Assembly: GCA_945888515.1 (NCBI GenBank)
Contig: CAMDAD010000022.1
Location: 1 to 51,355, forward strand
Length of the DNA stretch: 51,355 nucleotides
Source: Akkermansia muciniphila
Lineage (GTDB): Bacteria > Verrucomicrobiota > Verrucomicrobiia > Verrucomicrobiales > Akkermansiaceae
Direction: 5' to 3'
Shown here: positions 23,116-35,458 of the stretch, piece after piece
Position numbering within the stretch: the first letter of the stretch is position 1
Layout: the number at the start of each line of letters is the position of its first letter
Program-made: the position numbers and the translations under genes
The notes under the pieces: model-generated
What the model was told of the DNA's origin: nothing
The model's input: the letters and a program-made list of their open reading frames with translations, nothing else
The model's database searches: none

Positions 23116-23901
23116 TCACTTCTTCGCCTCGACAGGCTTCAGAGTGATCGGATCGACGAGAGTGGTGGGATCCATTTTTGCTCCGGCGAGATCTTTTTCG
23201 TAGGACTTCAGTTCATCGGCATTCACTGGCGCTGATGGATCTGGGCGCTTCGCCGCTAAATCAATGGCCGCTTGGGCCATTTCCGCCGTCACCACATCCC
23301 CTACCGTGTTACCGAAGCTGTTGCGAACGAAGGTCATAATATAGGCAAGGTCCTGCGCACTCATGCCACCACCTTGGGCCGGCATCACACCAGCACCATA
23401 AACTTTGCCAGTGCTGGTAGGACCTTGCAGACCGTTCAAGATGATTTGAGAAAAGCGCTCCGAGTGACCGGTGGACCAGGCTGATCCGACAAGAGAAGGA
23501 TAGTTGACACCATCTCCTTTTCCATCAGCACCATGACAGCCATTGCACTTCGCACTGTAAAGCGATTGACCTTTTTTCACGTAGAGATCGAGGATGGGCT
23601 TGGGTGGCAGAGCGATATCGTCGGCCACGCCGGGTGCTTTGCCGCGAACGTAATTGGGTTTCACCGAGGCGCCGTAATCAAACAAAGAGCCGGACGTTTT
23701 TCCGATAACCGTGCCACCGATGACAAGCATGACAGCGCAGAGCGCAAAGGCAGCGATAGACAAAGGTTCCTTGTCGGCACCAGGGTTGCGATGTTCTCGC
23801 GCCGCGGCAGCCGTGGCATCGCCACTATGCGCGGTAGTAACGTTAATCAAATCGTCCAGATCGGGGCGACCGGTAGGTTGAGGAAAGGAGTCTTGTGACA
23901 T
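23116..23901 (-). CDS. Membrane-anchored monoheme cytochrome c (CcoP-like position)
   Basis: A 261-aa protein with a cytoplasmic N-terminal stretch, one membrane segment around residues 48-70 and a periplasmic class I cytochrome c domain carrying one heme site (C-N-G-C-H). Likely axial Met is in G-V-M-P-A-Q. The heme domain ends with F-V-R-N-S-F-G-N, matching the paralog at 26215-27006. It is the last gene of the Act/CcoNO-like operon, in the place a CcoP subunit would hold, but has one heme rather than the usual two. It probably carries electrons from the complex; the acceptor is unknown. Confidence 0.85.
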   Translation of the reverse strand: MSQDSFPQPTGRPDLDDLINVTTAHSGDATAAAAREHRNPGADKEPLSIAAFALCAVMLVIGGTVIGKTSGSLFDYGASVKPNYVRGKAPGVADDIALPPKPILDLYVKKGQSLYSAKCNGCHGADGKGDGVNYPSLVGSAWSTGHSERFSQIILNGLQGPTSTGKVYGAGVMPAQGGGMSAQDLAYIMTFVRNSFGNTVGDVVTAEMAQAAIDLAAKRPDPSAPVNADELKSYEKDLAGAKMDPTTLVDPITLKPVEAKK

Positions 23902-23939: not shown

Positions 23940-24653
23940 TTATTTCTCAGCAGGCTTCGGTGGTGAATAGTTCATTGAGGCAGGCACAGCGTCGTCTTTT
24001 TTCATCGACATCAAATACCCCACCAGTGCGCGCGCTTCAGGTTTCGGTGACGGAATCACCTCATCGGCTTTGGGTTTTTCAAACAAAAACGGGACGGCGG
24101 GGCATGTTGACCAACGCATGTCCACATGCAGGCGAGGATTGTAAAGATGTTCGAACAACATCTCCTCTGGTGAAATTTTCATCGAATCATTCCAAGCATC
24201 GCCTCGCTTCTCTTTGAGCTCGGCGTTTTTCGCAATCGCCGCGTTGGCATAACGCGCTCCGACATTGGAGAGGTCGGGCCCGATGCGCATCAGACCAATT
24301 TGCGCAAATTCCTCGCCTTGGTAGTCGAACACGTTCGACTCACGACGTGTATCACCACGATCCGGGTGCGCCTTAAACCCCGCCCATCCATCGCGATGGA
24401 AGTCATTGCCCGCATAAGTAGGCCGCACCACCTGGGTGTGACAGACATAGCATCCATTCTGCGCGTAAACCATAGCGCCGTTGGTGATTTGGCCGGTGCG
24501 CTTCGGAAAATACACACCTGTCTTCTCGTCGATCGCCTCGACGTATGGCACAGGTTTAAGTTCGCGCGTTTTGAAAAATGGCAGCACCACGGCAAACAGC
24601 CATGCCGCGCCAAAAGTGGCTGTCATACCCAAGGTGAAAAAACGAAGTGTCAT
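23940..24653 (-). CDS. CcoO-like membrane-anchored cytochrome c
   Basis: A 237-aa homolog of the cbb3 oxidase monoheme subunit CcoO. It has an N-terminal membrane anchor, then G-A-M-V-Y-A-Q-N-G-C-Y-V-C-H-T-Q with the heme site at Cys68/Cys71/His72, and I-G-P-D-L-S-N-V-G-A-R-Y. The family segment H-L-Y-N-P-R is kept, but where CcoO has S-x-M-P with the axial Met, this protein has S-T-C-P, putting Cys184 at the ligand position. A nearby Met179 might substitute. It follows the CcoN-like gene by 31 nt and should form a complex with it. Confidence 0.85.
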   Translation of the reverse strand: MTLRFFTLGMTATFGAAWLFAVVLPFFKTRELKPVPYVEAIDEKTGVYFPKRTGQITNGAMVYAQNGCYVCHTQVVRPTYAGNDFHRDGWAGFKAHPDRGDTRRESNVFDYQGEEFAQIGLMRIGPDLSNVGARYANAAIAKNAELKEKRGDAWNDSMKISPEEMLFEHLYNPRLHVDMRWSTCPAVPFLFEKPKADEVIPSPKPEARALVGYLMSMKKDDAVPASMNYSPPKPAEK

Positions 24654-24684: not shown

Positions 24685-26184
24685 TTAGTGGACGATCACA
24701 GATCCGGGACCAGCGTTATCGATATCCCCTTCGGGACCGTGAGGATTTCCCAGATGCGCATGACCGAGCAAGGTCGGATGCAAAGAACGGCGACCGAGAC
24801 GCATCCACATGAAGAACAAATGCAGGCAGAAAAACAGGTTTGAGACTAGCACAAAGCACCAAGCGATCAGGGTGGCGATCAGGTAAGGATAAGCACTAGC
24901 GACGGCACTGTCCCAAGAAAATTTGAAATCCTCCTGCCCTTGACCGTGCAGCAGGCCACCAAGCACAGAGAGAACCGCCACGGTGATCACTCCATACATG
25001 GAAAATAGAAAATGCCACTTGATCAGGCGCTTCGACAACCACTCGCGGCGAGTCACGCGTGGAACAATGAAATACATCGCCCCAAACATCACAAAACTGA
25101 AGCAGCCATAGATGGCAAGAATGTCCATGCCATAGCTGGTGATACTGAACTGAGAGATGGGCAATGTTGAATCAGGTAGGTTCGTCAAAACACTCGCCAC
25201 ACCAAGTAGCAGCATGCAGATCACACCAGCGGAAGCAAAGCGCAAAGACGGGCTGGCAGAGAACTTTTCCGGTGCGGAGAGCATGGTGCGCAGGGTGCTG
25301 ATCGCGATGGCTGCAGTGGGAACGCCAATAAAAACAGCTGCGGCAGCACCGAGATAAGGAAGGAAAAAGGGAATCGGAGCCCCCGCCATCTTCTGCATGC
25401 CAGCCCATGGTCCAACGATGGCAAGTGTCCAGAATCCAATCAGCGAGAGCGAGTAGCTGTGAACCGGACGACCCGTAATTTTTGGAGCGAGATAATAAGC
25501 AACCGCAGCCGCACTGGGAACAAAGAACAGATACGTCAAACCCGAGCGAAACCATGTGGCCACAGCGGCCGACATGAGCGGATTGCCTCCGACGAGAAAA
25601 ATCAGCACATACGCTGTGGCGACAATCCAAGGAAACCAAATCAAAGCGGCGACAGCAAACCACTGCGAGACATAGACCTCACCTGCCGCACGAACCCGGA
25701 ACTGGATCATCGTCCAAATCGCAATCAGCGCATACGTAGTCAAGAGCGCAGGCCACACCATGTCGGGAAATTCCATCCACGGCACACCAGTACCGTAACC
25801 AGCAAGGATCGCGATGGTCCCAACCGAAACGATCAAATTCCACGCGTGCCCAGCAGCAAGAATGATGCCCGACGCGCGATTCTCCTGCCGTGTCAGACGC
25901 GCCACCAGCCAGATCAACACACCGAAGGCCGCTTGGCAGCCCCATCCGTAAACCAGAGTCGAAATATGAGCCGCAAACACACGACCTTGGGTCAGCGCAG
26001 CGCAGCCGTCCAACAGTTCAGGCGACACCATTTTGGCCACAGCGATGATTCCCAAAATCAGGGACAACGCCAACCAAAGAGCGCCACTGGTGAAAAAGAA
26101 CATGACCGGATGACGCATCGAACGGTCAATCGCCGTGCGTAGAATCGCGTCTTGTTCTGCGGATGATGGAGATTCAGTTGACAT
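24685..26184 (-). CDS. CcoN-like heme-copper oxidase homolog lacking CuB and heme ligands
   Basis: A 499-aa protein with about 12 membrane segments, aligning along its whole length with cbb3 oxidase subunit I. Shared landmarks include Y-V-S-Q-W-F, Y-Y-L-A-P-K-I-T-G-R-P-V-H-S-Y and G-A-M-Y-F-I-V-P. Of the invariant ligands only His73 (low-spin heme, TM2) remains. The CuB His in W-Y-G-H is Ser214, the His pair in G-P-H-H is Gln264-Lys265, the cross-linked Tyr position is Gly258, and the G-H-V-H heme motif is G352-M-D-I. It therefore cannot reduce O2 by the known mechanism. It lies between a cytochrome c gene and the CcoO-like gene, downstream of actF. It may be a structural or electron-relay subunit; this is inference from alignment by eye. 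Confidence 0.88.
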   Translation of the reverse strand: MSTESPSSAEQDAILRTAIDRSMRHPVMFFFTSGALWLALSLILGIIAVAKMVSPELLDGCAALTQGRVFAAHISTLVYGWGCQAAFGVLIWLVARLTRQENRASGIILAAGHAWNLIVSVGTIAILAGYGTGVPWMEFPDMVWPALLTTYALIAIWTMIQFRVRAAGEVYVSQWFAVAALIWFPWIVATAYVLIFLVGGNPLMSAAVATWFRSGLTYLFFVPSAAAVAYYLAPKITGRPVHSYSLSLIGFWTLAIVGPWAGMQKMAGAPIPFFLPYLGAAAAVFIGVPTAAIAISTLRTMLSAPEKFSASPSLRFASAGVICMLLLGVASVLTNLPDSTLPISQFSITSYGMDILAIYGCFSFVMFGAMYFIVPRVTRREWLSKRLIKWHFLFSMYGVITVAVLSVLGGLLHGQGQEDFKFSWDSAVASAYPYLIATLIAWCFVLVSNLFFCLHLFFMWMRLGRRSLHPTLLGHAHLGNPHGPEGDIDNAGPGSVIVH

Positions 26185-26214: not shown

Positions 26215-27006
26215 CTATTTCGGCGTTTTGAGCTCGCTTGCCTGAAGAGCGGGCAGTCCTACTTCACCGCGGAATGCTTTGACTTGGTCTGCTGTCACGG
26301 CAGAAGCACTGTTTCCAAAAGAATTACGCACATAGGTTAGGACAGCGGCGATTTGTTGATCGGAAAGATGCGCCACGGCCATCATCGGCGCTGGCAAATT
26401 GTAATCAACACCCTTGACTTGGATCGGACCGCCGAGCCCGCGCAACGTGATACGGATCGGATTTTCCACGGGACCCACGACCCACTCAGAACCTGCAAGC
26501 GGAGGAGCCAATCCGGGAACACCCGCGCCATCGGCACCGTGGCAGGCTTGACACAGCGCGTATTCGATTTTTCCTGCATCCATGACGGCTGGGTCGATGG
26601 GAGCGCTAGGATCAGTTTCCACGACCGTGACGGGAGCCGCATTTTTCGCGGCTTCCTCGATCGCCTTGGCCGCAGCCGAGCCGGGGATCACCTGCTCCGG
26701 TTTCTCTACGGCAGACGGTTTCGTGGCCGCCAATTGCTGACCTAAGTGAGCGAACACATCCTGCGGTTTCACCTGCACGGTTTTGCCGGCTTCCAATTCC
26801 TTGTAGGAAAAATTCGCCCTCTGCGCCGATTCGATCTTCTCACGGTTCTGATAGCGAGTTGTAGCCGCCAAGTCTTCGAGAGTCTCGGGTTGTTTGCTCT
26901 GCGATAAAGCGACGATGCCGAGCACGACACCGAAGAAGCCAAACACAGCCAATGCCCAGAAAAAAGCTTTGAAGCGAACGATAGGGTTGTCTTGAGACGG
27001 GTCCAT
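26215..27006 (-). CDS. Membrane-anchored monoheme cytochrome c
   Basis: A 263-aa protein: one membrane segment (residues ~12-34), a ~90-residue Ala/Glu-rich linker, then a class I cytochrome c domain with one heme site (C-Q-A-C-H) and a likely Met ligand in A-P-M-M-A. The end of the domain, Y-V-R-N-S-F-G-N, matches the cytochrome at 23116-23901, so the two are paralogs. I chose the ATG at 27006 (M-D-P-S-Q-D-N), which gives the membrane anchor; the longer frame overlaps actF. It starts 20 nt after actF and 31 nt precede the CcoN-like gene. It could pass electrons between the two modules. Confidence 0.87.
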   Translation of the reverse strand: MDPSQDNPIVRFKAFFWALAVFGFFGVVLGIVALSQSKQPETLEDLAATTRYQNREKIESAQRANFSYKELEAGKTVQVKPQDVFAHLGQQLAATKPSAVEKPEQVIPGSAAAKAIEEAAKNAAPVTVVETDPSAPIDPAVMDAGKIEYALCQACHGADGAGVPGLAPPLAGSEWVVGPVENPIRITLRGLGGPIQVKGVDYNLPAPMMAVAHLSDQQIAAVLTYVRNSFGNSASAVTADQVKAFRGEVGLPALQASELKTPK

Positions 27007-27025: not shown

Positions 27026-28441
27026 TCAGTTAGAGAGATTCGCGGACTCCAAGATGCGGGGATCGCGGTGAGGATAGAGCGCGTGCTGACCGAGCGCGCG
27101 CAGGAAGAAAAACACAAAACCGGCGCCGATGGTGACGAAGGCAAGAACGTCTCCAAGCCATGCGCCCTTTATCGTCACGGCGATGTCGCCGAAAGTTGCG
27201 TGGTCGATATTGCCCAGCGAAATGCCGCGCTCAGGGATGACGATCAGATAGATGTCGAGAATGTGCACCAGCAGCATGTAAATGGCCACGGCGCTGAGTA
27301 GATGCGGCTTTTTCTTCAACCACTGTTGCAACAAGACCACAAAAGGAAGCACGAAGTGCATGATCACCAGCGCGATGCTCGCGATGTTCCAGCCCTCGGT
27401 GTTACGGATGAGGAAATACTTGGTTTCCTCCGTGATGTTCGCATACCAGATCAGGAAGAACTGCGAGAATGTGACGTAAGCCCAGAACACCGTGAAGGCA
27501 AAGAGCAGCTTGCCCATGATGTGGAAATGCTCCTGGCTCACCACGTGTTTCAGGTAACCCGAACGACGCAACAAATAGACCGTGATGATGATGACGGCCA
27601 TCGAGTTGATCGCGCAACCGGCAAAAATATAAACGCCATACATCGTCGAGAACCAAGTGTAGTCCATGCCTTTGAGCCAATCGAATGCCGCGAAGGTCAC
27701 CGTCAGGGCGAGGATGGGCAGAAAAGCAGCGGCACGACGACGAGCTTTGAACAGATGCACAGTGCCGGGATTCGGGTCATTGTCCTGCACGGTCGAAAGC
27801 TTGCGTAAGCGATAGATCGCATAGCCCAGTGCCAAGAAGAACATGACGGTACGGAAATACCAAAACGGCAGGTTCATGAACCAGTGCTTGTTGAACATCA
27901 GGTGGTCGGCGTGATGGAGACGATCGGCCATGGTCGATGCCATCGGCACCGTTTCGCCTGTCGTGAGATAGCGGAAGCCATTCAGCACCCAGTTCCAAGA
28001 ACCAGCCAGCCACTCGGTGATAAGCGTCATCGTCGGGATATCTCCCCCCACCTTGCGGTGCATGTTCATCCACTCGTAGAGATAATACTGCACGTTCGGG
28101 CAAAGCAGTGGAATCGCAAAAATGCTCAGCCAGGGAAACACCGAGCCGAGGTTTTCCATCACACGGCGGACGCTCGTGCCCCAACCGCTGTTCGAAACAT
28201 TGTGCAAGAGAGTCCAAAAGCAACCGCCGAGAGCCAACGTGAAGAAATAGAACAGCGCAAAGACCCAGGAATACGCGAAGCTCCCCTGCTGCGATTTGGG
28301 CGCGAAAAACAGGAGATACGCGCTGAGCAGTCCGCCGAGAACCATGACGGCGAAAGCGATCATTTTGACTTTGCCAATCTTGGATCCATCCAAGTGCTCG
28401 CCGTTTGCAGGAATGTCGTGAGATGTGACGTGGTGTGCCAT
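27026..28441 (-). CDS. actF: Alternative complex III subunit ActF
   Basis: A 471-aa polytopic protein of about 10 membrane segments, the second NrfD/PsrC-like subunit of alternative complex III, which oxidises quinol and reduces cytochrome c or an oxidase. ActF marks include F-W-T-L-L-H-N-V-S-N-S-G-W near TM3, N-M-H-R-K and, in the middle, F-D-W-L-K-G-M-D-Y-T-W-F-S-T-M-Y-G-V-Y. Family knowledge places it beside ActC in the membrane. It lies 26 nt after actE in an unbroken act gene order. Confidence 0.93.
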   Translation of the reverse strand: MAHHVTSHDIPANGEHLDGSKIGKVKMIAFAVMVLGGLLSAYLLFFAPKSQQGSFAYSWVFALFYFFTLALGGCFWTLLHNVSNSGWGTSVRRVMENLGSVFPWLSIFAIPLLCPNVQYYLYEWMNMHRKVGGDIPTMTLITEWLAGSWNWVLNGFRYLTTGETVPMASTMADRLHHADHLMFNKHWFMNLPFWYFRTVMFFLALGYAIYRLRKLSTVQDNDPNPGTVHLFKARRRAAAFLPILALTVTFAAFDWLKGMDYTWFSTMYGVYIFAGCAINSMAVIIITVYLLRRSGYLKHVVSQEHFHIMGKLLFAFTVFWAYVTFSQFFLIWYANITEETKYFLIRNTEGWNIASIALVIMHFVLPFVVLLQQWLKKKPHLLSAVAIYMLLVHILDIYLIVIPERGISLGNIDHATFGDIAVTIKGAWLGDVLAFVTIGAGFVFFFLRALGQHALYPHRDPRILESANLSN

Positions 28442-28467: not shown

Positions 28468-29172
28468 TTAGGGAGCGGAAGTCGCTTCGTCTTGTTGTTT
28501 TTTGCCAGCCTCATAGGCGTCCTTGACGACATCATAAGGAGCACTGCGGGCGACCTGCATCGCACGGATGTAGGCGATGATCGCCCAACGGTCACGCACC
28601 GGAATGTTGTAGCCATAGCCAGACATATTGCCTTTGCCTTTGGTAATGACTTCATACAAACGGCCATCAGGATAGGTAGCGGAGGAATAGGGAGAAGACA
28701 CTAAATTCGCAATACCAGGCACGCCATAGAGGCTGGTGACACCCGCGCCATCACCCGATTTGCCATGGCACACGGAGCAATACACTTGATAGCGTTCTTC
28801 ACCTCGTTTGAGAAGCTCTTGAGAACTCTCGACACTCAATGCTAGCTCTTCAGGCATTCCAGTGCCGAAATAATCACCGATGTGACCAGTGAAATAATAA
28901 CCAGTGCCACCCGAGAATTCATATTCAGGAATGCCACCCAATTGGGTTGCGCCATCAGCCTGGAACCCGCGCGGTGCCGTCTCAGCCACTGGCTTGCGCG
29001 CGCCTTGACCATCAGCAAAGAAAGCATCCTGCTTCTGCGCTTTGAGAACATCCTGGTTGTCCATATCAGGCAACAACACGATTGGTGGCTCACTGAAGCT
29101 GTGGCCGCGGTATTTGAAAATACCAACCACGGAAATGGCTACGATCGCATAGATGAGAAAGAAATATTTCAT
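28468..29172 (-). CDS. actE: Alternative complex III subunit ActE, monoheme cytochrome c
   Basis: A 234-aa membrane-anchored or exported cytochrome c with one heme site (Y-C-S-V-C-H-G) and a typical D-G-A-G-V loop; a hydrophobic N-terminal segment serves as anchor or signal. Near the C-terminus, M-S-G-Y-G-Y-N-I and D-R-W-A-I-I-A-Y-I-R-A-M-Q are characteristic of ActE. The ATG at 29172 is preferred; an in-frame TTG two codons upstream is possible. It lies 19 nt after actD. Confidence 0.9.
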   Translation of the reverse strand: MKYFFLIYAIVAISVVGIFKYRGHSFSEPPIVLLPDMDNQDVLKAQKQDAFFADGQGARKPVAETAPRGFQADGATQLGGIPEYEFSGGTGYYFTGHIGDYFGTGMPEELALSVESSQELLKRGEERYQVYCSVCHGKSGDGAGVTSLYGVPGIANLVSSPYSSATYPDGRLYEVITKGKGNMSGYGYNIPVRDRWAIIAYIRAMQVARSAPYDVVKDAYEAGKKQQDEATSAP

Positions 29173-29191
29173 GGGCAAAAATTGTCAGGGA

Positions 29192-29749
29192 TTACGCAGG
29201 TTCCTCCTCGATGAGTTCAATGCTGTTGCCTCCGATTTCCCCAAGAAAGTCCTTGGTGGCGGTGGCAGAGAATTTCGGGTCGCGCGCTTCGAGGGCGATG
29301 AAAAATCCATCGTCAGTCGAGCGCTCGAACTGCTTGCTGGCAAAAAGCGGGTGATTGAAGCGTGGCAGTTTCATCAGGGCGAGCAGACCAAACAAAGTAG
29401 TGAAACCGGAGAACAGAATCGTAAGCTCGAACATGATCGGGAAAAACGCCGGCAAGGTAAAAAAGTTGGTTGGCTTACCCTGCACTACGGTTGGGTAAAT
29501 CACCACCTGCGTGGTGTAGGCCAAGAGGAACGCGGTGATCGTGCCCGTCATGCCACCAAAAAACACCATGTAGGGAAGAATGGAGCGCTTCAGGCCCATC
29601 GCTGCATCCAGTCCGTGAATGGGATACGGCGAGTAACAATCCCACTTGGTAAATCCGGCATCGCGCACTTTTTCCGCAGCCTTATAGAGAGCCGAGGCGC
29701 TCTTGAACTCTGCCAGGTATCCGTAAACTTTTTTCCGTGTCGTACTCAT
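29192..29749 (-). CDS. actD: Alternative complex III subunit ActD (DUF3341)
   Basis: A 185-aa protein with a cytoplasmic N-terminal domain (Y-G-Y-L-A-E-F, then D-A-G-F-T-K-W-D-C-Y-S-P-Y-P-I-H-G) and two membrane helices, exactly the DUF3341/ActD plan. ActD has no cofactor; it supports complex assembly. It is 36 nt downstream of actC. Confidence 0.92.
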   Translation of the reverse strand: MSTTRKKVYGYLAEFKSASALYKAAEKVRDAGFTKWDCYSPYPIHGLDAAMGLKRSILPYMVFFGGMTGTITAFLLAYTTQVVIYPTVVQGKPTNFFTLPAFFPIMFELTILFSGFTTLFGLLALMKLPRFNHPLFASKQFERSTDDGFFIALEARDPKFSATATKDFLGEIGGNSIELIEEEPA

Positions 29750-29785: not shown

Positions 29786-31279
29786 TCAAACCGTAGTCCC
29801 TTTGTCCGTGGTTTCGGGCAGCTCATGCTGATAGGCGGGAATCTTCACCGTACCGTCATCGGGGTGGTCGTTGAGGTCATCGAAGTGCGGATCGGATTCG
29901 CGAAGGGTCCACTTGACCTCGGCAATGTTGATGCAGGGGAGGAATCTCAGGAATAAGAGGAAGAGCATCAGGAACATGCCGATGGTGCCAACGAAAAGAA
30001 TGATCTCAAAGGGGCTGGCGGAATAGTATTTCCAATCGCCTGGCAGCCACATACGGGCCAGCGTAGTGACAATGATGACGAAGCGCTCGAACCACATGCC
30101 TACGTTCACTGCCATCGAAACCGCCATGATGACCCAGAGGTTTTCGCGACATTTTTTGAACCAGAAAACCTGTGGGGAAATGACGTTGCAGGACATCATC
30201 GCTAGATAGGCCCACCAGTAAGGACCGGTCATACGATACTTGAACGCTTCCATTTCATAAATGGCACCTGAATAAAACGCGACGAACAACTCCATGAGGT
30301 AGGCGTAACCAACGATCGTGCCAGTGAGCAAAATAATCTTCGCCATGTTCTCGATGTGCTTCATCGTGATCATGTCGTGAAGACCGTATATCGCGCGAGC
30401 AGGAATCATGATTGTCAACACCATGGCGAAACCACCGAACACCGCACCTGCCACAAAGTATGGGGGGAAAATGGTGGTGTGCCAACCGGGAACCACGGAG
30501 GTAGCGAAGTCGAACGAAACGACCGAGTGCACGGAGAGAACGAGTGGGGTCGAGAGAGCCGCCAGCAACAGGTAGGCCATCTCATAGTGGCTCCACTGAC
30601 GGTTGCCACCGCGCCAGCCGAGGGCAAAAATGCCGTAGAGCATCTTGCGCAGGCCGGGCTTCGCACGGTCGCGGATGGTGGCGAGGTCGGGCACCATGCC
30701 GAGGAACCAGAAAATCAACGAGACAGTGAAATACGTCGATACCGCAAATACGTCCCAGAGCAGTGGCGACTTGAAGTTTTGCCAAATCGCATTCGCGTTC
30801 GGAATGGGCGCGAGGAACCAAGCCATCCAAACACGACCTACGTGGAAGGCGGGAAAAATGCCTGCGCACATCACCGCGAAAATCGTCATCGCCTCCGCCG
30901 CGCGGTTGATGGACGTTCGCCAGTTTTGTCGGGTGAGAAACAGAATCGCCGAAATCAGCGTGCCCGCGTGACCGATACCGATCCAGAACACGAAGTTGGT
31001 GATGTCCCAGCCCCAGAACACCGTATTGGTCATGCCCCAGACGCCGACTCCGGTAGAAACCAGCAAAGTCAAACCACCACCGACTCCGAGCATGGCAATC
31101 AAGGCGCTGGGCAAAAAGAGAAGCCACCACAGCAGTGGTTGCTTGTTCTCTACGATGCCGCAGATGCGCTCCGTGATCCAATGATACGAGCGGTTGTTCA
31201 AAATGAGGTGCTCGCGTTCCAAAACGGGCAGTTTCGGACCGTTTCTCGGTTCGTGAGCGTTGGTGCTAGCGTTTGCCAT
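29786..31279 (-). CDS. actC: Alternative complex III subunit ActC (NrfD-like)
   Basis: A 497-aa NrfD/PsrC-family membrane protein with about 10 helices that binds quinol and may move protons. Identified by [37 protein letters not shown], and [15 protein letters not shown]. It is 40 nt downstream of actB and precedes actD, the standard order. Confidence 0.94.
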
Positions 31280-31319: not shown

Positions 31320-34300
31320 TTAAGCCATGTGGATCGTGGCGGTTCCGACAAACGCGGCGTCCGGCATTTTTTCGTTAGGATTCTTCACACGCGCCATGTA
31401 AAGCGTGCGGGGAATGGTGCCGATGTAGTGCAGGAGCTCATAGCTGCGGGCGAGTTCGCGACCGCGAACGACGGTAGCAGCTTGTTCATCGAGCAAATTG
31501 CCAAAGCTGATCGCGTCCGCCGGGCAAGCCTCTTGGCAGGCGACCTTGACGCTATCGACCGGAATCCGCAGCGTCTTCGTGGTGACGGCAACATCGGGCG
31601 ATGTTTTACCAGACGCGAGGACATCTTGTTTCTGACCGCGCTTCTGACGGATTTTTGCATCCTTGAGGCGCTGGACGCAATACGTGCACTTTTCCATGAC
31701 ACCGCGCATCCGCACAGTGACGTTGGGATTGCGCTGAAGGTGTGGAGCTTCGCCCACTTGCGTGACGCCAGCAGGTCCCTTATACAAGTTGTGAGCAATC
31801 AACGGATTGCGCTTGTTGTAATCGAAGTAATTGAAACGACGTGCCTTGTAGGGACAGTTGTTCGCGCAATAGCGGGTGCCGATGCAGCGATTGTAGGCCA
31901 TGGCGTTGAGGCCATCCTCGGTGTGAACCGTGGCATTGACCGGGCAAACCGTTTCGCAAGGTGCGCTTTCGCACTGCACGCAGGCGACTGGTTGCGGCAC
32001 CATGGCTGGGCTTTCAGTATCGAACGTATTCTCTTTGTTCTGTGCAAAGTAACGATCCATGCGGATCCAATGCATGGCACGACCTTTCGCGACTTGCTCC
32101 TTGCCAACGACGGGAATGTTGTTTTCCGCCTGACAAGCCACCAAACAAGCATTGCAACCCATGCAGGAGGAGAGATCGATATTCATCGCCCACTGGTGCA
32201 GATCATCGCTCAGGTTCGGCTTGGCATTGCCGTTTTGATCGGGATCCCATGTCTTTGATCCTTCTTGTTTGTAGAGGGAAATATTTTTGGGCGCATGGGC
32301 GTCGTTTCCTTGTTTGGCCACGGCCTCGTATTGCTTCTCGAAGCTCCCTTTCTCGCCATCTAACGTGGAAATTTCCCGAGCCAGCGCGCGACCATACATC
32401 GCGTGGTGCTCTTGGGTGAGTGCCACGGAATAGCGCTTGTCCGTTAGAGAAACCGTAGCGCCTTGGGCCATGTAAGTCGTGGCAGAATCGCGCAAGGGAT
32501 AGACATTCACACCGCGGTTGACGCCAACCAAGCCCACATGCTTGTCATTGACCGGACCGCGGCTGAGTTCATCCTCGGCATCGTAGCCCTGGCCGTAGCC
32601 GACAGGCAGCACGATCGTGTTTTCGGAAAGTCCGAAAGCGATCAACACGGGAATCTCGATGTCCTTGTTTGCGAGAGAAATTTTGATCACGGGAGCGCGG
32701 CGATTTCCAGCCTCGCCATCCACAGGGCTGGCCGCGCGCGGGCTTTCCAGCTCAATCACTTGATCGTAAATCCCCAACTCTTTTGCCGTTTTCGGTGAGA
32801 CCAGAGCGGCGTTGTCCCAGGTCAATTTCGAGATGGGATCTGGTGACTCCTGCAGCCACGCGTTGTCGATCCAGCGACCATCGAAAATCGAGCCATCAGT
32901 GGAGAAAATCACGTCCAGGCTTTGCTTGCTGACCGCCTTGTAGCTCGGTGCTTGAGCGGCGATGGGAGTGAGGGTAGCCGTCGCCGATGCCTCGCCCGTG
33001 AATCCTTCGCGTAGGGCTTTTTTCCACGCGGCATCATTTCCTGCAAAGGTCTTGCGCACGGCAACAAAGGCCGCGGACTCCTCGCCAGTGACAAGTTTTC
33101 CTTCGAGCAGGGCCGAGAGCAATTCCAGTTCCGAAACGCATTCTGCGTAAAGCGGCAAAATCATCGGCTGGATGAGAGTGTGCAGGCCGTTCGCCGAGCG
33201 GGCGTCCGACCAGCTCTCAAGGTAATGCGCGGCAGGAATGTGCCAAGTCGCCGCATGAGCGGTGGCATCCGTGCGCAATCCGAGATGAAAGCTCGCTTTG
33301 GCTTTTTGCAGCGTCGTCACAAAGTCGAGATCCGCAGGCGCATCAAAGGCGGGATTGGCGGGAGTCAGCAGGAAAACATATTCCACGGCACCGCTTTCCA
33401 CGTCTTTTTTCAGCCCAGCGATGTCGCCAAAGCCAGCATTGTCCGATGCAAGCCCTTTGAGAGTATTCCCGGGAGCTCCGAGAGTCTCATTGATTGCTTG
33501 AACGATGGAACGCAGTGCGGGAGCCGTGCGGGAGCCGGCGAGCGCGAGAGCTCTGCCTTTGGAGGCGAGCAAGTCGTCCGCAGCCGCATCCACCCATTGG
33601 CTGATTTTTTCATCCGAAACAGTTGCCACCGAACTCAGCAAAGGATGAGAAACGTTTAGCTTGCGAGCGATGGCCGCGGCGATGCTGATAACTTTGCTCG
33701 GCTCGATGCGGAGACGGTGATCAGCCATGCCGCCGGTCAGGCTAAAAATACTTTCCACCGCATAAAGACGATTCATCGTCTTTACATTACGCTTATTTTT
33801 GTAGGCTTTGCCCTCGGGCTTGCGGCGATCGAAAAATGGGGTGACAGGACCTTGGGGGTCGAGCGAGGCAAAATCGCAATCGAAGGAAATGATGCGATCC
33901 GCTTTGGCGAAATCAGCAACAGCATGCGCAGCGCTAGCAGCAGGTGCCAGTGGCTCATAGGCGTAAAATTTAGCACCGGAGAACTTGGCCGCGAGCTCCT
34001 TGCTGACACGAGTGCGGGTCGGCGACTCATCAGCACCAAAAAGGAAACCAATCTTGCCTGAGGCCGTGGCTTCAGACAGCGCTTTTTCGAGATCGGCACG
34101 GGTGGAGGCCTTCGCGTGATGAAGAATTTTCTGCGAACGCGAGGGCGAATACATGTCCAGCACCGAGGCCTGCACGAAGGCATCCGTGCCATCGGAATCA
34201 GGATGCAGCGTGTTCGGACCGAGCTTTGTCGGGCGTCCTTCGAAGGTAGTCACCACCACAGGAGTCGCTCCCGTGGAGCGCGGCATGGCGGATGCGTAAT

Positions 34301-34604
34301 ACAGTGCCTTGCCCGGAATCACCCACTCCGGAGCCTGCGTGTAGGGAACGGTGTATTTTTCGGCACGACGGCATGCCACCATGCTGAGACCCGCCAAGGC
34401 GGACGAGGCGCCCATCAGCTTGAGGAAGGAACGACGCGAAGTCTCGGCATCCGCTTCGTCCGCCATCGCGGCGGCGCTGGCGGGAAATTCTCGATCCATG
34501 AATTCGCGAAATGCAGGGCTGCCTTCAAGCTGCCCCACGCTACGCCAGGATACGGTGGTTTCGTCCGCTGGGATTTCTGGATGTTGCCAAATGCGTTTGC
34601 TCAT
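31320..34604 (-). CDS. actB: Alternative complex III subunit ActB (Mo-oxidoreductase-like/Fe-S fusion)
   Basis: A 1094-aa periplasmic subunit. The N-terminus has W-R-S-V-x-Q-L-E and a Tat motif S-R-R-S-F-L-K at residues 56-62, followed by a hydrophobic stretch ending in Cys78. The large middle part is related to molybdopterin oxidoreductases, which in ActB lacks the cofactor. The C-terminal ~300 residues form a ferredoxin-like part with four cysteine groups: C-M-G-C-N-A-C-L-V-A-C, C-V-Q-C-x4-C-x3-C-P, C-I-G-x2-Y-C-x3-C-P and C-T-Y-C ... A-C-Q-E-A-C-P. These bind the iron-sulfur clusters that carry electrons from quinol. The start lies 27 nt past the actA stop. Confidence 0.95.
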   Translation of the reverse strand: MSKRIWQHPEIPADETTVSWRSVGQLEGSPAFREFMDREFPASAAAMADEADAETSRRSFLKLMGASSALAGLSMVACRRAEKYTVPYTQAPEWVIPGKALYYASAMPRSTGATPVVVTTFEGRPTKLGPNTLHPDSDGTDAFVQASVLDMYSPSRSQKILHHAKASTRADLEKALSEATASGKIGFLFGADESPTRTRVSKELAAKFSGAKFYAYEPLAPAASAAHAVADFAKADRIISFDCDFASLDPQGPVTPFFDRRKPEGKAYKNKRNVKTMNRLYAVESIFSLTGGMADHRLRIEPSKVISIAAAIARKLNVSHPLLSSVATVSDEKISQWVDAAADDLLASKGRALALAGSRTAPALRSIVQAINETLGAPGNTLKGLASDNAGFGDIAGLKKDVESGAVEYVFLLTPANPAFDAPADLDFVTTLQKAKASFHLGLRTDATAHAATWHIPAAHYLESWSDARSANGLHTLIQPMILPLYAECVSELELLSALLEGKLVTGEESAAFVAVRKTFAGNDAAWKKALREGFTGEASATATLTPIAAQAPSYKAVSKQSLDVIFSTDGSIFDGRWIDNAWLQESPDPISKLTWDNAALVSPKTAKELGIYDQVIELESPRAASPVDGEAGNRRAPVIKISLANKDIEIPVLIAFGLSENTIVLPVGYGQGYDAEDELSRGPVNDKHVGLVGVNRGVNVYPLRDSATTYMAQGATVSLTDKRYSVALTQEHHAMYGRALAREISTLDGEKGSFEKQYEAVAKQGNDAHAPKNISLYKQEGSKTWDPDQNGNAKPNLSDDLHQWAMNIDLSSCMGCNACLVACQAENNIPVVGKEQVAKGRAMHWIRMDRYFAQNKENTFDTESPAMVPQPVACVQCESAPCETVCPVNATVHTEDGLNAMAYNRCIGTRYCANNCPYKARRFNYFDYNKRNPLIAHNLYKGPAGVTQVGEAPHLQRNPNVTVRMRGVMEKCTYCVQRLKDAKIRQKRGQKQDVLASGKTSPDVAVTTKTLRIPVDSVKVACQEACPADAISFGNLLDEQAATVVRGRELARSYELLHYIGTIPRTLYMARVKNPNEKMPDAAFVGTATIHMA

Positions 34605-34631: not shown

Positions 34632-35345
34632 TTAATGGTGACAGGTGGCGCAGCTTTCACGCGGTTGCAGCTTGAACACATCGGTCAATTTCTTGCCGAA
34701 CTCTTTCGGATCGCTGATGCGCTCGCCCTTGTCGTTTTCAACAACATTCTGTTTCAAATACTCGGCCGCGTCGTATTTCAGATTGAACACTTCTTCCAAC
34801 GGACGCACCTCATTTTCCGGATTGCGATGGCACTCGAGACAGAAGCCCATGGAGTGCGCTTTGGCGTGATATACGACCTCCATCTGATCGACTTGACCGT
34901 GGCAACTCACGCAGGAAACTCCGCGGTTGACGTGGGCGCTGTGGCTAAATTTGACGTAATCAGGAGCCTTGTGCACTTTGACCCACTGGATCGGTTTGCC
35001 ATCATACAGTGGATGGGTTTGATCCATCGCACGGTGCAGCGGCTCCAGCTTGGGACTCTGACGTTGCACATGCTGGTGGCAATTCCAGCAGGTGTTCGCC
35101 GAGGGCAGGTTCGAGTGATCCGAATTGTCCACAAATGAATGGCAATAGCGACAGTCCAAACCAAGTTGATCGACGTGGATTTTGTGAGAAAAAGGAATGG
35201 GCTGCGAAGGTTGATAGCCGACCACGGTCGCCTTCGGAGTCGCATAAACCGTGAAAGCAGCCACCACACCCACGGCGGCGGTTCCAGCACAAAATGCGAT
35301 TTTCAACGGTAGTAAATTGGTCCAGCGAGGAAAAATATTGGCCAT
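34632..35345 (-). CDS. actA: Alternative complex III subunit ActA, pentaheme cytochrome c
   Basis: A 237-aa periplasmic cytochrome c anchored by one N-terminal membrane segment (residues ~14-35). Five C-x-x-C-H sites are visible: C-R-Y-C-H, C-W-N-C-H, C-V-S-C-H, C-L-E-C-H and C-A-T-C-H, as in Rhodothermus ActA. ActA takes electrons from ActB and passes them to a cytochrome or oxidase. I chose the ATG at 35345 (M-A-N-I-F-P-R-W); a longer frame to 35417 would run through the upstream dyad. It is the first gene of the ten-gene respiratory operon. Confidence 0.94.
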   Translation of the reverse strand: MANIFPRWTNLLPLKIAFCAGTAAVGVVAAFTVYATPKATVVGYQPSQPIPFSHKIHVDQLGLDCRYCHSFVDNSDHSNLPSANTCWNCHQHVQRQSPKLEPLHRAMDQTHPLYDGKPIQWVKVHKAPDYVKFSHSAHVNRGVSCVSCHGQVDQMEVVYHAKAHSMGFCLECHRNPENEVRPLEEVFNLKYDAAEYLKQNVVENDKGERISDPKEFGKKLTDVFKLQPRESCATCHH

Positions 35346-35372
35346 GGCGAGTTGCGGTGGCGGAATCTGCCT

Positions 35373-35394
35373 GCTTGTGAAAAATTTCACAAGC
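35373..35394. promoter_or_regulatory. CRP/FNR-type dyad upstream of actA
   Basis: A perfect 10-bp inverted repeat (GCTTGTGAAA, AA, TTTCACAAGC) whose core is TGTGA-N6-TCACA, the consensus architecture of CRP. It is centred about 40 nt upstream of the actA start. Further half-sites follow: TGTGAGCACA at 35407-35416 and TGTGA at 35421-35425. A Crp/Fnr-family protein controlling the respiratory operon is the obvious reading, but no such regulator is in the window. It has no T-tract, so a terminator is unlikely. Confidence 0.55.
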
Positions 35395-35458
35395 AAAATC
35401 TTATGCTGTGAGCACATTTTTGTGAGTGCGATGACGAAAGCGCTCGCAGCCCGATATT

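Follow-up and report, generated by a model that had tools for sequence, protein, structure and literature searches.

The gene located at positions 24685..26184, on the minus strand of the window (the whole stretch of 51,355 nucleotides of Akkermansia muciniphila DNA analysed here), encodes a homolog of CcoN, the subunit I of cbb3 oxidases, devoid of the heme-copper site. The protein is best seen as a pseudo-oxidase, from which the catalytic centre has been removed, and in which fold and partners are kept. The gene is found in an operon encoding the quinol-oxidising alternative complex III (ACIII; Act genes), and homologs similarly disarmed are spread in many lineages of the Verrucomicrobiae, where the site has been lost repeatedly.

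Homology and predicted fold

The ORF is uninterrupted, and encodes a protein of 499 aa having COX1 as sole Pfam match (135 bits, cut-off 34.8). The protein is aligned by phmmer with solved CcoN chains (PDB) over about 415-430 residues. CcoN chains are also, ahead of nitric oxide reductase, the solved structures nearest to an AlphaFold2 model built from a 46-row alignment (pLDDT 85.9, pTM 0.88); the comparison with 3mk7 gave Z 45.6 over 448 residues at 2.4 A, tied with 8smr. The protein has both the homology and, as predicted, the 12-helix CcoN fold of C-type (cbb3) oxidases, and the alignment with cbb3 subunit I along its length, reported in a sequence-only reading of this DNA, is upheld. Homologs L163, L165, L180 and L200, the latter carrying a stop inside the given range, were left out of the structure alignment. 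The curated threshold of the NCBIfam ccoN model is not reached (78.3 bits, cut-off 583). Four intact homologs belonging to the ACIII-linked HCO family also fall short (217-254 bits), and the cut-off is therefore not specific to the loss of the site.

Loss of the heme-copper site

Residues were mapped in a 119-row alignment including the window protein, 3mk7 and 117 other homologs, and are numbered for CcoN according to the 3mk7 sequence. The four key helices are free of gaps. We take H207, H257 and H258 of CcoN to be the CuB ligands, Y251 the cross-linked tyrosine, H345 the ligand of the high-spin heme b3, and H60 and H347 the ligands of the low-spin heme b. In the window protein, H207 is replaced by S214 (codon at 25543..25545, minus strand as all those following), H257 and H258 by Q264 and K265 (25390..25395), Y251 by G258 (25411..25413). 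The tract H345-V346-H347 is replaced by M353-D354-I355 (25120..25128), and the heme b3 histidine and one of the two heme b histidines are missing accordingly. The only ligand kept is H73 (25966..25968), corresponding to H60. CcoN residues R57, E122, W203 and R437 are likewise replaced. The roles of the CcoN ligands are in part given in the available text of PMC3578206. The absence of gaps, each of the substitutions, and the survival of His73 only had all been noted from the sequence alone, and are confirmed; no other histidine is placed at the CuB or heme sites by the sequence alignments.

Judged from these residues, the window protein is not a cbb3 oxidase as an enzyme, because the defining features tested are missing, and oxygen reduction should no longer be possible. 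That the gene still encodes a working oxidase using other ligands is very improbable. The CcoN fold, as predicted, and the adjoining cytochromes are kept, as a working enzyme would have them. Against this, the protein has 12 histidines, and a comparison of 33 sequences of family f1 shows only six of them to be fixed: H73, H113, H391, H455, H469 and H482. Intact members carry H391 at about the same frequency, the last three are situated within or close to the C-terminal end, and H113 (3mk7 position 100) lies apart from the ligand columns. Hidden alternative ligands are rejected on this inventory.

Organization of the operon

All the genes of the operon are transcribed in one direction, on the minus strand, in the order ActA to ActF, mono-heme cytochrome c, HCO gene, CcoO-like gene, CcoP-like gene. 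ActA (34632..35417) is a penta-heme cytochrome c matching Cytochrome_C7. ActB (31320..34604), the molybdopterin-like and iron-sulfur subunit, features Fer4 domains and TIGR04519 and QrcB/QrcC-like matches. ActC (29786..31279), the quinol-binding subunit, is NrfD-like (Pfam NrfD, 80.5 bits). ActE (28468..29178), a mono-heme cytochrome c, was assigned by Pfam, gene order, homology and CXXCH count; ActD (29192..29749) and ActF (27026..28441), which has no Pfam match, by gene order and homology between loci only. The quinol-oxidising complex supposed to neighbour the gene is hence found upstream, as the complete ActA-ActF set.

Three additional mono-heme cytochromes are encoded close to the HCO gene. 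Upstream, the product of 26215..27006 matches Pfam Cytochrom_C; the ORF opens at 27156, and the likely start is the Met of MDPSQDN. Downstream are located a CcoO/FixO-like membrane cytochrome c (23940..24653), having one CXXCH motif kept in relatives, and a CcoP-like cytochrome c (23116..23901), also with one CXXCH, matching Pfam Cytochrom_C and Cytochrome_CBB3. Pfam support for the CcoO-like gene is modest, though above the cut-off (FixO 32.9 bits vs 29.6); the NCBIfam ccoO and ccoP models score far below theirs. In the first round of loci collected, both downstream cytochromes carry CXXCH in 69/70 disarmed and 19/21 intact loci, and in the remaining three only one downstream cytochrome gene was recognised. 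ActA with five CXXCH and ActE with one were found in 60/70 disarmed and 19/21 intact loci. An ORF best matching the window 26215-27006 cytochrome lies upstream of the HCO gene in 15 of the 70 disarmed and in none of the 21 intact loci.

Distribution of intact and disarmed homologs

Among 57 close relatives, counting the window genome itself, 54 had a match at E 1e-70 or better in searches with the protein. In the phylum, matches at E 1e-20 were found in 110/387 genomes, some true CcoN among them. In the class, ActC was found in 323/384 genomes (E 1e-60, some being distant ActC-like genes) and an HCO match in 300/384 (E 1e-10, some being true CcoN). A contig scan of named relatives yielded at least 566 confirmed loci. 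The best 80 of them, 39-93% identical, include Haloferula luteola, H. rosea, Persicirhabdus sediminis, Rubritalea marina and R. profundi; no intact copy occurs among these 80, one of which (L195) has a gap at one position.

A set of 150 HCOs from the class, collected in three sampling rounds (91, 39 and 20 genes, the last 20 as gene only), was classified; sampling followed search matches, and the set is not an unbiased census. Many of the genomes are drafts, and family and genus codes (f, g) are those assigned by the sampling tool. All seven residues of the centre are found in 46 HCOs, while 104 lack at least one. The latter keep none (39 sequences), one (47), two (13), three (3), five (1) or six (1) of the seven. 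No complete metal site is found in 93; six have only the low-spin heme b pair, three only the b3 ligand, and two both heme sites; the full set of CuB histidines occurs in none of the 104. Conservation of the residues singled out in the sequence-only reading is partial: Q264 is found in at least 90% of the 46-row alignment of the order, but H60, the counterpart of H73, is kept in only 40 of the 104 non-intact sequences. H347 is kept in 16. The loss is not peculiar to the window copy, being common to its order and to many other lineages, and is beyond chance, as all seven residues are retained by homologs elsewhere in the class.

Flanking DNA was available for 130 loci. At least one Act gene was found upstream, on the same strand, in 126, and all six in 113, in agreement with the claim that the surrounding genes are preserved and with the same gene order being present in other genomes. 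Of the four loci lacking Act genes, two are at a contig edge, and two are intact. The latter, L228 (f21/g71) and L261 (f85/g219), have CcoO- and CcoP-like genes, and the upstream DNA covered (6.1 and 8.5 kb, respectively) is free of Act genes; the link of HCO to ACIII is therefore not universal. In three loci (L038-L040, f4/g23) only ActE and ActF were found upstream of the disarmed HCO in about 11.7 kb, and the operon looks split, because ActC is on another contig. The most eroded HCOs (L247-L250 and L265, f106/g253) score only 252-288 bits with the profile of the family itself; their Act proteins are close to those of the window (ActC about 70% identical) and gene order is kept.

Intact and non-intact genes are found together in five family codes (f7, f9, f10, f15, f99) and in one genus code, f15/g53, in which L282 and L283 are intact, and L096 and L284-L287 disarmed. 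In f15/g257 two genes show differing early lesions, at H207 only (L262) and at Y251 and H257 (L281), the heme ligands being intact in both; these are draft genomes of many contigs, and sequence errors are possible. In f10, five of eight genes lack the CuB and b3 ligands and keep the heme b pair. One genome (G665) hosts both a heme-b-only and an intact copy (L298 and L299, on contigs 47 and 78). A single ActC match was found in this genome, and the intact copy may therefore stand outside an Act operon. Copies with early lesions and intact heme ligands, copies left with heme b only, and the numbers of H60 and H347 retained point to an order of loss in which CuB would go first and heme b last.

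Number of separate losses

Losses were counted on trees taking loss as irreversible, unless stated. A tree of concatenated Act proteins from 119 operons, 35 of which intact, requires 17 losses, or 16 changes if irreversibility is not imposed; 11 of the 130 loci with flanks had too few Act columns and were left out. An earlier set of 83 operons gave 11 losses, or 8 changes without irreversibility. The CcoO+CcoP tree (116 rows) gave 11 losses. Only three are counted on the HCO tree, from which active columns and their neighbours were removed, also when 150 rows are used, because disarmed, fast-evolving sequences group together. In the 150-row HCO gene tree, 101 of the 104 non-intact sequences fall in one clade. 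Taken by itself, this tree would imply few losses. A single ancient loss was nevertheless considered and rejected: the HCO tree is prone to long-branch error and is distrusted in view of the placement of f15 and f9 in a reduced tree, and losses are also scattered in the Act tree and in the CcoO+CcoP tree.

In a reduced HCO tree of 63 rows, most disarmed families were left out to lessen long-branch pull. In this tree the f15 members (2 intact, 8 not) are monophyletic with support 100, and constraining those of f9 (8 intact, 17 not) to be monophyletic gives a slightly better fit than no constraint; both results favour separate losses within families. In f7, a disarmed member, L083, is surrounded by intact relatives, both in the HCO trees and in the Act tree. 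The high count of losses is weakened by the four intact f9 operons: a tree constrained to group them withstands the AU test (p 0.171), and f9 is poorly resolved internally. At least three separate losses in the class can be safely assumed from these trees, and more than ten probably occurred.

Selection after loss

Values of dN/dS were obtained by a simple counting method, and some pairs are saturated. In the genus of the window, dN/dS of the disarmed gene ranges from 0.047 to 0.122, as measured in 14 pairs, those with dS below 2 among 45. In the closest pair with a full operon, HCO (0.047) is comprised between ActF (0.016) and ActC (0.021) on one side and ActB (0.065) and the CcoO-like gene (0.076) on the other. 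The gene is under purifying selection, and these values and the kept gene order bear out the view that it is not a pseudogene. A pseudogene, an assembly error or a single mutated copy would be consistent with the few rows which have a stop inside the matched range, as L200, where the stop is at codon 480 of 490, near the end. This has next to no likelihood: dN/dS is far below 1 and none of the best 80 of 566 loci of named relatives is intact, which rules it out.

Within families, the divergence of HCO relative to Act proteins has a median of 2.03 in disarmed (281 pairs) vs 0.78 in intact members (19 pairs). Since disarmed sequences diverge about 2.6 times faster than intact ones, constraint on the disarmed HCO is, by this measure, relaxed but not gone. 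In two pairs of methanotrophs HCO dN/dS is 0.19 and 0.15, about twice that of ActB. Both observations suggest that retention may be in part passive. According to a fully passive explanation, the subunit would have no positive role, ACIII or the cytochromes having come to depend on it for assembly (constructive neutral evolution). The faster evolution following loss, the methanotroph pairs, and pockets eroding differently between lineages would all be accounted for. However, HCO dN/dS is no higher than that of ActB in the pairs L053/L054, L052/L066, L042/L045 and L076/L077, and 12 residues fixed in the order of the window suggest some new constraint. We regard this explanation as unlikely.

Of 113 columns invariant in the 21 intact members, the seven ligand and tyrosine columns are kept at 13% in the 70 disarmed, and the other 106 at 61% (Mann-Whitney p 1.4e-4). 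In the aligned columns, residue loss is targeted at the metal centre. Columns G67, N103, G116, P127, W204, P263 and P265 (3mk7 positions) are kept at 99-100% in disarmed sequences, and the motifs YY..PK and G..Y...PR at 83-93%. The 12 residues newly fixed in the order of the window (56 sequences) are rare in intact forms, and include Y397, N449 and W442. R16, G45, Y397, W442, L456 and R465 are each found in at least 96% of the 56 sequences and in at most 10% of the 21 intact, all of which have glycine at the W442 position. The 12 residues may reflect repacking of the emptied pocket.

The emptied centre could alternatively provide new chemistry, as a proton or ion path or a cofactor site, formed for example by Q264, K265 and D354. 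The conservation of Q264 in the order would fit, as would a set of 88 distinct disarmed sequences, in which K/R at 258 is associated with D/E at 346 (Fisher p 1.5e-9). However, this pairing is not significant if relatedness is considered (median sign test p 0.0625), and unrelated residues are found at the Q264, K265 and D354 places in other disarmed lineages. A role of this type seems quite improbable. A new 258-346 salt bridge, strong by plain count, was similarly discarded once relatedness was counted.

Other oxidases and genomes lacking the module

The window genome has two PF00115 genes, the HCO gene and a second one on contig 3 (11597-13096). The latter is adjoined by COX3, COX4 and COX2 genes, and includes HPEVY, HH and GHFH, which we take to be A-type oxidase motifs. 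No match to bd oxidase subunit I or to bc1 cytochrome b was found in this genome, the completeness of which is 97.5%. From the presence of only two PF00115 genes, and from these missing matches, it is probable that no enzyme other than ACIII passes electrons from quinol to cytochrome c, and that the A-type oxidase is the sole terminal oxidase. As the latter is on another contig, its pairing with the module is inferred in the window genome. In several other members of the order, of other genera (for example G018, G024, G030, G047), the CcoO- and CcoP-like genes are directly followed by a strong PF00115 gene, the start of which is within about 2 kb of the HCO gene; at the G018 locus (L218) COX3 and COX4 genes come next. 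COX3 of the A-type operon is unusually long (529 residues in L221:4695-6281, 576 in L218:5591-7318), the COX3 stretch being at the C-terminal end.

PF00115, which does not separate oxidases from NO reductases, was searched for in 80 genomes. At least two matches were found in 60/60 genomes hosting disarmed copies, the best having E 7.3e-122 or lower, far stronger than a disarmed copy would give. At least two matches were also found in 18/20 genomes with intact copies; redundancy alone does not therefore predict loss. The two genomes with a single match (G057 and G200, same genus) have an intact copy and no COX2 match.

A subset of 14 ActC-positive genomes lacking an HCO match was inspected. 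Four stop at a contig end near the gene (L268, L269, L271, L274), L269 featuring an 80-residue fragment, and L267 contains a strongly diverged disarmed HCO. Eight have more distant Act or Act-like clusters without HCO (L272, L273, L275-L280), two of which, L278 and L279, include a cytochrome matching the CcoP-like protein (63 and 30 bits). In the last one, L270 (genome G063), the Act cluster is normal, and HCO, CcoO and CcoP are all absent; the HCO module is therefore not indispensable everywhere. No normal Act operon having both cytochromes and lacking HCO was found among the 14, and HCO and the two cytochromes would accordingly fit a unit of three proteins. The listed genomes of g3 (family f1; G076 for example) lack an HCO match, and their ActC-like gene, if present, is a distant one; in L278, also from g3, this gene is accompanied by a few Act-like genes and by the CcoP-like cytochrome.

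Proposed role

The explanation we favour, with moderate confidence, is that an oxidase has been turned into a non-catalytic scaffold, holding cytochromes c between ACIII and another oxidase. An ACIII operon would have encoded the ancestor, subunit I of a functional oxidase of the C-type (cbb3-like). In many lineages of the Verrucomicrobiae, including that of the window, the sites of CuB, heme b3 and usually heme b were lost, and with them, as expected, oxygen reduction. The subunit would have been kept as a membrane scaffold free, or nearly free, of heme, by which the two mono-heme cytochromes c, CcoO-like and CcoP-like, would be held at ACIII or close to it. Electrons may move from quinol to ActC/ActB, to ActA/ActE, to the CcoO- and CcoP-like cytochromes, and finally to a different terminal oxidase, which in the window genome would be the only A-type oxidase, located on the other contig. 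Assembly with ACIII, scaffold function and electron route are all suggested by genes and their order. We infer that the simplest role is that of an adaptor-like membrane platform, on which the two cytochromes c would relay electrons from ACIII onward.

A new role, either structural or in electron or proton transfer, had been proposed for the protein from its sequence. The structural half of the proposal fits best. It is unlikely that electrons pass through the disarmed subunit itself, since H73 has lost its partner and H60 is kept in a minority of the non-intact sequences; the neighbouring cytochromes retain their motifs instead. It is possible, and we propose it more tentatively, that the oxidase module was converted independently many times into a non-catalytic electron-relay and docking module on ACIII. 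The stages seen among lineages (an intact centre, damage to CuB, heme b alone remaining, no site left) would let this conversion be followed. Since intact, half-dismantled and disarmed versions share the same gene position, even in one genus, the structural role looks separable from catalysis. This bears on why organisms keep the subunit without its chemistry, and on how ACIII passes electrons on.

Relation to known systems

The window protein is similar to CcoN (PDB 3mk7, 9g6b, 6xkw) for full-length homology, predicted fold and CcoO- and CcoP-like neighbours. It differs in lacking CuB, b3, a complete set of heme b ligands and the catalytic tyrosine, in being encoded in an ACIII operon, and in the ccoN score (78 bits vs 583). 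According to the available parts of PMC5928083, PMC8552683 and PMC8361435, ACIII passes electrons to A-type oxidases in supercomplexes. The ACIII-oxidase supercomplexes of Rhodothermus marinus and Flavobacterium johnsoniae (PMC5928083, PMC8552683), as described in the same parts, share with the window the Act cluster, the quinol-to-oxidase path and oxidase genes adjoining Act. In contrast, the partner there is a live A-type oxidase, and here ACIII is adjoined by a disarmed C-type subunit with its cytochromes.

A metal-less oxidase subunit is already known as a kind. In the accessible text of PMC10715153, which cites earlier work, a 'deranged' COX1-like protein of Acetobacter is noted, a homolog of HCO subunit I without metal-binding residues for which a structural role is proposed. 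This protein differs in being clustered with CtaB and not tied to ACIII, and repeated loss is not mentioned in that text. The open-access literature searched, as far as its available text goes and leaving aside the primary papers on ACIII gene clusters (Refojo et al.), gave no report of C-type oxidases that are linked to ACIII and lack these ligands; the association with ACIII, the wide distribution and the loss by repeated stages were not found there either. The accessible part of PMC3084760 describes a classifier for which sequences without these histidines were discarded when the data set was built; such proteins would therefore not appear in it.

A cbb3 oxidase is listed in verrucomicrobial methanotrophs in the available parts of PMC8498564, PMC10205796 and PMC11102522, along with aa3 and ba3 oxidases, and in that of PMC6688271 a cbb3 oxidase beside ACIII is linked to high oxygen affinity. 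In these texts it is regarded as a terminal oxidase. The f8 orthologs are located in the same position beside ACIII but have no complete metal site, and the 'cbb3 oxidase' of methanotrophs appears to be such a disarmed protein, without heme-copper site. The physiological inference should be corrected accordingly for Methylacidiphilum, the cbb3 oxidase of which appears unable, from its residues, to bind oxygen at a heme-copper site; microaerobic capacity would be overestimated by annotation treating genes of this type as high-affinity oxidases. The aa3 and ba3 oxidases are unaffected by this statement. No complete metal site is present in any of the five f8 sequences examined, and the ccoN model found nothing above 34 bits in the five genomes. 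All five carry pmoA/amoA-type genes (PF02461, 5/5 vs 0/9 others). One of them, G206, has four, and its ACIII-linked gene (L123) features S, E, S, S, H, F and V at the seven centre positions.
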